DNA of 64,000 bases from Pseudomonas allokribbensis (GTDB lineage Bacteria; Pseudomonadota; Gammaproteobacteria; Pseudomonadales; Pseudomonadaceae), in NCBI RefSeq assembly GCF_014863605.1, contig NZ_CP062252.1, positions 1,497,001 to 1,561,000 on the forward strand, in the 5' to 3' direction. The notes under the pieces are model-generated. The model was not told the DNA's origin. It saw only the letters and a program-made list of their open reading frames with translations, and did no database searches. Shown here in pieces: positions 40,733 through 43,476 of this stretch. Numbering within the stretch: position 1 is the first letter of the stretch; each line of letters begins with the position of its first letter. Both the position numbers and the translations under genes were made by a program.

Positions 40733-40761
40733 TTGTCCGTCGGAAGTGCGGGCTCTAGCCT
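40733..40761 (+). promoter_or_regulatory. tentative sigma-70 promoter for the DUF6124 leader
   Basis: TTGTCC and TAGCCT are separated by 17 bases and end 2 bases before the structured leader begins. Both boxes deviate from consensus. The placement, rather than the match, is the argument. Confidence 0.35.
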
Positions 40762-40763
40762 GT

Positions 40764-40976
40764 GTGGGTCGCTGATGAATTGGCGATCGGGATTGGAACC
40801 CCCGCGACTTCACTGAATGCAAAGCGCCGTTCATGACGTATGCTTGCGCACCTTGATGGTGTGCACTCTGTTATGGCGGCTGTGCGCGGGAGACTTCGAG
40901 TCTGTCGGGTTTTGCTCAGTGGCCCGGGTTCCAACCTGCGTACAGCTGCCACCCCTTCGCGTGGAACCGAATGGGT
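40764..40976 (+). ncRNA. highly structured 5' leader RNA upstream of the DUF6124 gene
   Basis: Five helices fit on the plus strand. An outer stem pairs GTG/GTCGC (40764-40772) with GCGAC/CAC (40804-40813). A hairpin follows at 40845-40865 (TGCGCACC-TTGAT-GGTGTGCA). A 16-bp stem pairs 40875-40890 with 40935-40950 with every base paired (13 Watson-Crick, 3 G-U), enclosing two hairpins (AGACT-TCG-AGTCT and CGGG...CCCG). A last hairpin lies at 40951-40976. It ends 31 bases before the DUF6124 start, which lacks a clear ribosome site. An in-frame coding extension to 40840 exists, but the pairing argues for RNA. I believe similar leaders recur in pseudomonads; this was not checked. Confidence 0.6.
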
Positions 40977-41007
40977 CAGCTCTAACCATCACACTGGGTA
41001 TCAAATC

Positions 41008-41376
41008 ATGTTCAAACCAACGCCGAATCCACCCGAAGTCGAAACCGATCCAACCTCCCCCTACACCTCAATCGACTCCAGAAAACTCAACGACGCCGCC
41101 AACCGCGCCCTCGATCACTACCTTTGCCCCGGCGCCCATGTCATGGGCACGATCAACCAACCCGACCCGATGTACTTCGCCAACCCGGCTTACGACACCG
41201 AATCCTTGCTGGCCAACGCCAGCGAATCACTGGGCTCGGCCAGCGAAATGCTCAACAACTTTGCCGCCACCCTTGACCCCGCCCACCGCAGAACCGCGAT
41301 AGGCATTGCGCAACTGGTGATGCTGGGTGAATTGGCGGTGAATCAGGCGCTGGATCATGTTGAGGTGAAGGACTGA
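41008..41376 (+). CDS. DUF6124 family small protein
   Basis: 122 residues from the ATG at 41008 (MFKPTPNPPEVETDPTSPYT). A proline-rich N terminus is followed by SRKLNDAANRALDHYLCPGA and a C-terminal helical block TESLLANASESLGSASEMLN with HRRTAIGIAQLVMLGELAVN. These small pseudomonad proteins (DUF6124/DUF3077-like) have no known function and usually occur as several paralogues per genome. An in-frame reading extends upstream to 40840, but that stretch is an RNA-like leader, so I keep the shorter protein. A terminator follows 24 bases later. Confidence 0.85.
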   Translation: MFKPTPNPPEVETDPTSPYTSIDSRKLNDAANRALDHYLCPGAHVMGTINQPDPMYFANPAYDTESLLANASESLGSASEMLNNFAATLDPAHRRTAIGIAQLVMLGELAVNQALDHVEVKD

Positions 41377-41400: not shown

Positions 41401-41430
41401 AAAAAACCGGTCATCGCGACCGGTTTTTTT
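41401..41430. terminator. bidirectional terminator between the DUF6124 gene and higA
   Basis: Arms AAAAAACCGGTC and GACCGGTTTTTT with loop ATCGC, flanked by A and T runs, separate the two convergent genes. Confidence 0.9.
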
Positions 41431-41456: not shown

Positions 41457-41816
41457 TCAAGAAACGCCTGAAAGCAAACTTTCATAAGGAATTCGCAATC
41501 CATCGTGCAGACGTTTAATCATCGACAGGCTCAGTTTTCGTTTGCGGTTCAGTACTTCTGACACGCGTCCGCTGGTGCCAATGAAAGGCTCCAGGTCACG
41601 AGGAGTCAGGCCTTGCTGTTCCATGCGAAATTTAATTGCCTCAATCGGATCAGACGGCGGTATTGGGTAATGTTCTTCTTCGTACTTCTCGATGAGTAGC
41701 ACGAGGATTTCCAGTTCATCACCTTCAGTCGAGCCGACTTCAGCTCCCCAGAGCTGTTCCACTCGTGTCAACGCCGCAGTCAGGTCTTCCGGGCTGCGAA
41801 TTGGCTTGATGTTCAT
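41457..41816 (-). CDS. higA: HigA-type antitoxin (XRE helix-turn-helix)
   Basis: 119 residues. The N-terminal half (TAALTRVEQLWGAEVGSTEG, then LLIEKYEEEHYPI) is the HigA extension, and the C-terminal half is an XRE domain (FRMEQQGLTPRDLEPFIGTS, then VSEVLNRKRKLSLSMIKRLH). It should neutralise the HigB RNase and repress the operon. Gene order is toxin first, as in other higBA loci, and the two reading frames overlap by one base. The shared operator is the palindrome upstream of higB. Confidence 0.88.
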   Translation of the reverse strand: MNIKPIRSPEDLTAALTRVEQLWGAEVGSTEGDELEILVLLIEKYEEEHYPIPPSDPIEAIKFRMEQQGLTPRDLEPFIGTSGRVSEVLNRKRKLSLSMIKRLHDGLRIPYESLLSGVS

Positions 41817-42118
41817 TACACGGTCTCCGCGTTGATCTGGTCATACTGGGCATGGGTGCCGACGAACCGGATGAAGCCAAGCTGCCGCTGGTAATCAATT
41901 GCCAGAATCACTCGATATTTATTGCCACCGATATTGAAGACAACCCTTGCACCCTTGAGGATGCTGGCTGTTCTGAGTTCGGCCTTGATCTCTTGTGGCG
42001 TGCGGTAGAGTGCCTTTTCCATATGGCGATACCATTCAACCAGCGGGGTCTGGGAATCAAAGTGAGCCGGATTGTTCTCCCAAAATTCCCGCAAGGTTGC
42101 TCTTGCAATTATCCGCAT
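41816..42118 (-). CDS. higB: HigB-type mRNA interferase toxin
   Basis: 100 residues. It has the HigB_toxin pattern: ATLREFWENNPAHFDSQTPL, EWYRHMEKALYRTPQEIKAE, ARVVFNIGGNKYRVILAIDY and the C-terminal FIRFVGTHAQYDQI. The histidine of GTHAQYD and the arginine in KYRV are family-conserved and catalytic in related RelE-fold enzymes. It cleaves mRNA, in related toxins on the ribosome. Its ribosome site GGAGG is partly inside a small hairpin CTCCC-AAAAC-GGGAG, which may limit translation. Confidence 0.88.
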   Translation of the reverse strand: MRIIARATLREFWENNPAHFDSQTPLVEWYRHMEKALYRTPQEIKAELRTASILKGARVVFNIGGNKYRVILAIDYQRQLGFIRFVGTHAQYDQINAETV

Positions 42119-42337: not shown

Positions 42338-42745
42338 TCAACGTTGCTGCAAAACCTTGAGCGCCGCCGAGGCCAGGAATCCGGAGCGGCTTTTCTCTTC
42401 CGGGTGGTGCAACACGTATTCATCGATACGATTGAGTAGATAGCCCGGCAATGTGATGTTGAGTTTCTGAGCTTTGCCCAGGTATTTGGTTACATCGATG
42501 TCCACCAACGCCCACGTGCAGCCAGCGTATTTTGGATTGGCGGCATGCAACGTGACCTTGTTGGCGGGCGGGATCGGTGAACCGTCTTCGGCCAGAATCT
42601 CGAAGTGGCCTTCGATGGCTTCTCGGGCCATGGCCATTGCGTCGTCCAGATCATCTCCAGCGGAGAAGCAGCCCGGAATATCCGGCACCTCCACTCCCCA
42701 GGCATGTCCTTCATCACCCATTGAAATCGCGATCGGGTAAAGCAT
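42338..42745 (-). CDS. hicB: HicB family antitoxin
   Basis: 135 residues with AGGAGG upstream. The degenerate RNase H-like HicB domain is seen in AWGVEVPDIPGCFSAGDDLD, then AREAIEGHFEILAEDGSPIP. The C-terminal 50 residues form a ribbon-helix-helix DNA-binding domain (LNITLPGYLLNRIDEYVLHH). It should inactivate HicA and repress the operon. It follows hicA by 36 bases on the same strand. Confidence 0.92.
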   Translation of the reverse strand: MLYPIAISMGDEGHAWGVEVPDIPGCFSAGDDLDDAMAMAREAIEGHFEILAEDGSPIPPANKVTLHAANPKYAGCTWALVDIDVTKYLGKAQKLNITLPGYLLNRIDEYVLHHPEEKSRSGFLASAALKVLQQR

Positions 42746-42781
42746 ATGTGTTGTCCTCCTGGACGCTGCTGACCGAGCGAG

Positions 42782-42961
42782 TCAAAGCAACGCCTGCTGC
42801 AAAATACTGATGGCCGTTTTCTTGAGCAGATCTTTCTTCGGGTGAGGCACCGTAACCAGACCAGGTTTGGTCGGATGCTTGAAGTGATGATGACTACCCT
42901 TGATCCGCACCAGATACCAACCGTCTGCGACGAGTTGGCCAATTAGAAAACGGCTATTCAC
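42782..42961 (-). CDS. hicA: HicA family mRNA interferase toxin
   Basis: 59 residues from a GTG start at 42961, easily missed because of its size. It reads MNSRFLIGQLVADGWYLVRI, then KGSHHHFKHP and VPHPKKDLLKKTAISILQQA, the double-stranded-RNA-binding-like HicA fold with the catalytic histidine in KGSHHHF. The toxin cleaves mRNA until bound by HicB. Its AAGGAGG ribosome site lies only 4 bases from the GTG and can fold into ACACC-N7-GGTGT, so translation is probably held low. Confidence 0.9.
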   Translation of the reverse strand: MNSRFLIGQLVADGWYLVRIKGSHHHFKHPTKPGLVTVPHPKKDLLKKTAISILQQALL

Positions 42962-43402: not shown

Positions 43403-43476
43403 TGGAGCGGGTGAAGGGAATCGAACCCTCGTTATCAGCTTGGGAAGCTGGAGTAATGCCATTATACGACACCCGC
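43403..43476 (-). tRNA. tRNA-Gly (anticodon CCC)
   Basis: 74 bases including an encoded CCA. The acceptor arms GCGGGTG and CACCCGC pair fully, the T loop is GGTTCGATTCC, and the anticodon loop TTCCCAA gives CCC (reads GGG glycine codons). The T stem has a G-rich and C-rich pair (GAGGG/CCCTT with one wobble). The gene is monocistronic with its own terminator. tRNA genes are common integration sites, but no duplicated 3' end was found nearby. Confidence 0.93.

Follow-up and report, generated by a model that had tools for sequence, protein, structure and literature searches.

Upstream of a DUF6124 gene in Pseudomonas allokribbensis lies a densely folded leader, which raises the question of what kind of RNA it is and whether it governs the gene behind it. 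In a preliminary description of the window (the whole 64,000-nucleotide stretch of DNA that was analysed), positions 40764-40976 were proposed to form a structured RNA that controls translation or is released, to be overlapped by a potentially misleading protein reading and to match no named layout.

Fold and identity of the leader

The dense folding of 40764-40976 was reproduced: its minimum free energy was -90.6 kcal/mol, a value neither beaten nor equalled by any of 200 dinucleotide shuffles (mean -77.7, sd 4.3; native z -3.0). Every position of the 16-bp stem 40875-40890/40935-40950 does pair, with three G-U pairs, and one extra pair, U40874-A40951, brings this stem to 17 pairs. The supposed absence of a named layout did not hold, as the core is the Rfam C4 antisense RNA (RF01695), which scored 57 bits against a cut-off of 45. 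A riboswitch identity was rejected, since no Rfam riboswitch family reached its cut-off in the window; further, the mode of action of C4 is that of an antisense RNA and not of a riboswitch. The positions of the leader elements are collected in Table 1.

Compensatory changes in the stem, which had been named beforehand as a supporting check, were present in the alignment of the 26 C4 sequences found in the host genome. RNAalifold predicted 25 pairs for this alignment, 19 of them changed on both sides. In the C4 structure as counted (26 pairs in 26 sequences), 96.1% of the cells were paired, compared to 85.2% in column shuffles and 35–43% when the structure was slid along the alignment, over which it is favoured by having been derived from the same sequences. 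Double changes affected 19 of the 26 pairs and 83 cells, which none of 500 shuffles equalled, and all three helices of C4 had covariation support. In four of seven window orthologues, inspection of the alignment by eye showed A-U in place of G-C in the long stem. GG stands at the start of the C4 stem in 26 of 26 sequences and the CC after the stem is conserved as well, flanks that would fit cutting by RNase P, by analogy with the phage RNAs discussed below.

The same bases are also covered by an open frame (40840-41376) in which they would encode the N-terminal part of a 178-aa protein, and a cluster of 178-aa proteins, P0002, does exist. Nevertheless, we give this reading practically no credence. 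Of 26 paralogous modules, 18 have in-frame stops in the stretch from the C4 5' end to the start codon, as do four of seven loci orthologous to the window, which rules out a protein-coding extension for the family; the base-pair covariation of the C4 region speaks against coding, and the DUF6124 domain lies entirely inside the 122-aa part. The frame is thus open in the window and unconserved, and it was rightly suspected of being misleading. The proteins of P0002 are 93% identical, and their start was probably called through C4, a likely start-site error that the C4 assignment corrects.

The remark that the gene has no evident ribosome site was nearly correct, the sequence at -12 being CTGGGT in the window as against GGAG or AGGA in most paralogues. 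The promoter listed in Table 1 is absent from the sites of a strict sigma-70 scan, and the hairpin behind the DUF6124 gene is missing from the output of the scan for terminator-like structures.

Table 1. Features of the C4/DUF6124 locus (positions within the window; duplex energies in kcal/mol)
Feature	Position	Strand	Basis
Probable promoter, TTGTCC-17 nt-TAGCCT	40733..40761	+	Placement and spacing as conserved TTGTGC-17-TATCGT in many paralogous modules
c4-a1b1-like target element	40755..40808	+	RF03163, 29.4 bits, E 2.4e-05; cut-off 46.7 not reached
a1, hairpin-loop element	40793..40800	+	Complements a'; duplex -17.1
b1	40811..40823	+	Complements b' with 2-nt bulge; duplex -17.3
Spacer hairpin directly 5' of C4	40845..40865	+	8-pair stem; terminator-like scan, z -2.5
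C4 antisense RNA	40869..40956	+	RF01695, 57 bits, cut-off 45; covariation
C4 stem P1	40874-40890/40935-40951	+	C4 fold
C4 stem P2	40891-40895/40899-40903	+	C4 fold
C4 stem P3	40905-40909/40923-40927	+	C4 fold
Loop b' (UGCUCAGUG)	40913..40921	+	9-bp duplex with b2, -13.4
Strand a' (GGUUCCAA)	40927..40934	+	7-bp duplex with a2, -12.1
a2 (UGGAACC)	40962..40968	+	Partner of a'
b2 (CACUGGGUA), across Shine-Dalgarno position	40992..41000	+	Partner of b'
DUF6124 gene, 122 aa	41008..41376	+	PF19619, 65 bits, cut-off 27
Terminator-like hairpin and U run 3' of DUF6124 gene	41405..41430	+	Read from sequence

AlphaFold models the DUF6124 protein as a hairpin of two helices, at residues 64-86 and 91-116 (pLDDT 74.7 on average, pTM 0.47). 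Foldseek returned no hit at E ≤ 0.001 for this model, the best values being 2.0 in PDB and 0.47 in viral models; the best sequence match in PDB, at E 0.024, was a designed protein, and the protein matched nothing in PADLOC, PHROGs or NCBIfam. Beyond the module, on the minus strand, lie a HigB toxin-type gene with its neighbour (41457-42118) and a HicAB pair (42338-42961), a stretch that adjoins a tRNA at 43406-43476. The HigB-type gene and its neighbour matched the PADLOC PD-Lambda-2 A and B models, the B model over the first 119 of its 402 positions.

Modules of the host genome and their pairing codes

The host genome (6.57 Mb, one contig) contained at least 26 C4 matches, 25 of them above the cut-off, with 150 of 1954 candidates scored, together with 23 c4-a1b1 matches (10 above the cut-off, that of the window below it) and 27 DUF6124 matches. 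In 22 of the 26 cases the distance from C4 to the start of a downstream DUF6124 gene is about 50 nt, and the remaining four have no DUF6124 downstream. One of these, M01 (L001, G000:C1:6314360-6314446), precedes a Bro-N/anti-repressor Ant-like gene, a target of the type known from P1; M03 is followed by a 53-aa reading frame with no family match, and M25 and M26 by small genes with no significant Pfam match. Five of the 27 DUF6124 matches lack C4, among them the second gene of a tandem, a fragment and one preceded by a1b1 only. At L068 (G000:C1:6374094) and L072 (G000:C1:2485420), a1b1 stands immediately before small genes, with no intervening C4.

In the window, b' matches the ribosome site and a' the site upstream of it (-13.4 and -12.1 kcal/mol). 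The specificity of this match was analysed over the 26 modules with duplex energies from RNAduplex, which ignore internal folding. The b'/b2 duplex averaged -14.24 kcal/mol with the own target and -6.98 with foreign ones, a difference reached in none of 10000 permutations, and the own b2 ranked first for b' in 20 of the 26 modules (second in the window). With reversed targets the difference all but disappeared (-7.93 and -6.99), yet only 177 of 10000 permutations reached the observed value, which indicates that shared descent adds some apparent match.

The other three pairings were less private. For b'/b1 the own and foreign means were -11.05 and -8.45, with the own target first in 6 of 26; for a'/a2 they were -10.01 and -7.17 (5 of 26), and for a'/a1 -13.08 and -8.80 (12 of 26). 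As none of 10000 permutations reached the observed value in the reversed-target control of a'/a1 either, that signal may partly reflect descent. Within subfamilies a' is common, and most of the distinction is carried by b'. When a2 and b2 were summed, the own target came first in 22 of 26 modules, and 13 of 650 foreign combinations lay no more than 2 kcal behind the own one or surpassed it. Among these were the reciprocal combinations of M12 and M13 and that of M05 with the window target, the C4 of M05 being predicted to bind there at -23.5 and on its own target at -22.6. To judge from sequence, then, the host genome would hold about two dozen C4 modules, most of them keyed to themselves.

Code switches and distribution among relatives

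The window region has counterparts of 90–93% identity at six loci. In L126, L128 and L129 the match extends to both sides of the module, while in L127, L076 and L077 it is limited to the module and its upstream flank, the downstream flank not being common. These loci and the window fall into three codes, one in the window, a second in L126 and L076 and a third in L127, L128, L129 and L077. Energies of b'/b2 ranged from -11.2 to -15.5 within a code and from -3.1 to -8.8 across codes; b1 was less discriminating (-11.1 to -19.4 within, -5.1 to -16.6 across). The alignment has three patches that vary, namely b1, b' and b2, set among conserved a1, stems and a2. The DUF6124 gene itself had dN/dS values of 0.09–0.17 versus the six orthologous loci and is thus under purifying selection. 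Between the codes, b' and b2 changed jointly, while the stems, the protein and at least the upstream flank were kept alike.

The same pattern was observed in a larger set of named DUF6124 loci, the best 80 of at least 547 confirmed in named genomes. A C4 above the cut-off lies just upstream in 79 of these 80, the sole exception, L200, having a1b1 without C4. Among the 79, with 45 distinct loop types, b'/b2 averaged -14.29 with the own target and -7.76 with foreign ones, and the own target came first in 25 of the 45. Both flanks were common in 40 locus pairs, 8 with the same b' and 32 with different ones; in the latter, own pairing averaged -14.29 and swapped pairing -8.78, and the swap was at least 3 kcal weaker in 24 of the 32. 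With one flank sufficing, 150 of 186 pairs, which are not independent of one another, differed in b' (own -14.25, swapped -8.61), and swapped pairing beat own pairing in 8 of the 150; this comparison omits L164, whose flank is short, and M21, M22 and M24-M26. The Rfam P10 sRNA was found less than 1 kb from DUF6124 genes in 4 of the 80 named loci (L136, L139, L152 and L191).

Of 149 Pseudomonas genomes, 138 had a C4 match and 118 a DUF6124 match. Every genome with DUF6124 also had C4, whereas 20 had C4 without DUF6124 and 11 had neither. At least 10 C4 were found in 91 of these genomes and at least 20 in 55, with at most 27 scored per genome, and the numbers of C4 and DUF6124 correlated with a Spearman coefficient of 0.87, uncorrected for descent. 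In a set of 194 genomes from 96 genera of the order, DUF6124 occurred in two Pseudomonas genomes only. At 20 chosen C4 loci of other genomes, C4 was followed in ten by similar 52–57-aa frames and in others by DUF3077/DUF6124-type proteins; four of these downstream proteins, when compared with Pfam, had DUF3077, DUF6124 or both.

Phages and plasmids were rejected as the source of DUF6124, which was present in one phage record and no plasmid. C4-like DNA was detected by blastn, with no Rfam check and always with partial query cover, in 32 phage records with the C4 of M01 as query and in 4 with that of the window. In phages phiAH14b (L206) and vB_Pae_U10 (L208), such DNA lies in small elements of 17 and 10 kb, respectively, next to genes for AlpA and Rha or flanked by integrase and primase genes.

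A further alternative is a dispersed repeat with no regulatory role, of which R178 of P. fluorescens would be an example. This repeat, as given in the accessible text of PMC2718517, is 101 bp long with 62% GC and an 11-bp internal inverted repeat, and has 18, 28 and 9 copies in three strains. It is near C4 in size and number and, to judge from this description, may be C4. Since neither a fixed place before one gene family nor matched changes of loop and target are expected of a mere repeat, we regard this explanation as very improbable.

Proposed regulation and its significance

RNase P releases the C4 RNAs of phages P1 and P7 from a longer transcript, and the loops of these RNAs bind around the ribosome site and block translation, according to the accessible text of PMC5320573, PMC12197685 and PMC8198154. 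The C4 at 40869-40956 shares with them a score above the cut-off of the RF01695 model, the three-helix fold and an a' and a b' that match a site before the next gene and its ribosome site; specificity through a few bases is a further likeness, as far as the text of PMC5320573 and PMC12197685 goes. The phage RNAs differ in their targets, which are icd and ant there and DUF6124 on the chromosome here, so that the locus is no P1-type c4-icd-ant immunity operon with icd and antirepressor targets; the host genome further differs in having about two dozen modules, most with their own code.

C4 homology, a covarying fold, the position and private complementarity across paralogues and relatives are observed. 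On this basis we propose, with a probability of roughly 80%, that a processed C4 RNA represses translation of DUF6124 as in P1/P7, in keeping with the early suggestion that the structured RNA may govern DUF6124 translation or be released. The promoter, a1/b1, C4, a2/b2 and the DUF6124 gene would form a chromosomal C4 module on one transcript. C4 would be excised from it, as in the phages; a' would pair with a2 and b' with b2, covering the ribosome site at about -12, and DUF6124 would consequently not be translated. The copies of the target sites in a1/b1, upstream of C4, may serve as a decoy and in this way lift repression. Processing and repression, like the role of a1/b1 and any trigger, are put forward by analogy.

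Alternatively, C4 might stay in the mRNA as a leader acting only in cis, folding back on its own a2/b2 with no released RNA, given that all partners lie within 200 nt on one predicted transcript. We hold this to be unlikely: the family is known from P1/P7 as a processed antisense RNA, Group 1 C4-like RNAs of A. baumannii are described by their authors as having processing-like read patterns (both in the accessible text of PMC5320573), and private keys within one genome matter mainly with trans-acting RNAs.

The a1/b1 element leaves somewhat more room for another emphasis, namely that it is a trans activator like IsrK of the prophage Gifsy-1 and the module chiefly a switch that a short 5' RNA operates. 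All eight isrK (RF01394) matches in the host genome, each sub-threshold, fall on a1b1 elements of the C4 family, so that IsrK of Salmonella and c4-a1b1 may represent a single type of element, and IsrK activates translation of the downstream orf45-anrP, as the available portion of PMC4825925 reports; from this likeness and this activation the decoy role suggested above was drawn. Both c4-a1b1 (RF03163) and IsrK resemble the element in the window in being leaders with target-site copies before C4. However, the window scores below both cut-offs, with 29.4 of 46.7 bits for the former and 18.7 of 50 (E 0.15) for the latter, whose weak match overlaps its a1b1 element. The window does have a terminator-like hairpin between a1b1 and C4; such a hairpin, with z < -1, occurs in just 14 of the 26 modules and is weak or missing in 12, and a universal terminator at this place was rejected. 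Activation by a1/b1, which as the main principle we consider doubtful, could supplement rather than replace repression by C4.

C4 and c4-a1b1 had been listed for Proteobacteria and gamma-Proteobacteria with phages (accessible text of PMC2864571), and a single Acinetobacter genome has already been reported to carry a large group of C4-like RNAs. The Group 1 sRNAs of A. baumannii resemble the present set in being many per genome with variable loops, but their targets were not narrowed down beyond phage or bacterial RNAs, whereas here a matched target stands beside each C4, before DUF6124 (for both A. baumannii points, available portion of PMC5320573). Within the open-licence literature, outside which most subscription papers lie, DUF6124 was unmentioned and DUF3077 was named once, in another context; no tie of C4 to either family and no privately keyed sets appeared there.

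The C4 assignment gives a name with a function to the leader before a widespread Pseudomonas gene family. It also reveals, in individual genomes, natural sets of matched antisense/target pairs whose codes switched independently between species and which are usable for studying the divergence and insulation of RNA recognition codes. Tentatively, the modules of the host genome could be some two dozen naturally occurring antisense locks, most of them mutually insulated and each shutting a small protein of one family, with a code that is rewritten at fixed chromosomal places, in b' and b2 together, without loss of the protein. This turnover would be in line with a conflict in which DUF6124 is a costly or phage-responsive effector derived from phage control genes and the locks must resist being opened or closed by foreign C4 or decoy RNAs of phages. 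As a whole, the findings suggest that a phage immunity device has been turned into a large chromosomal gene family.
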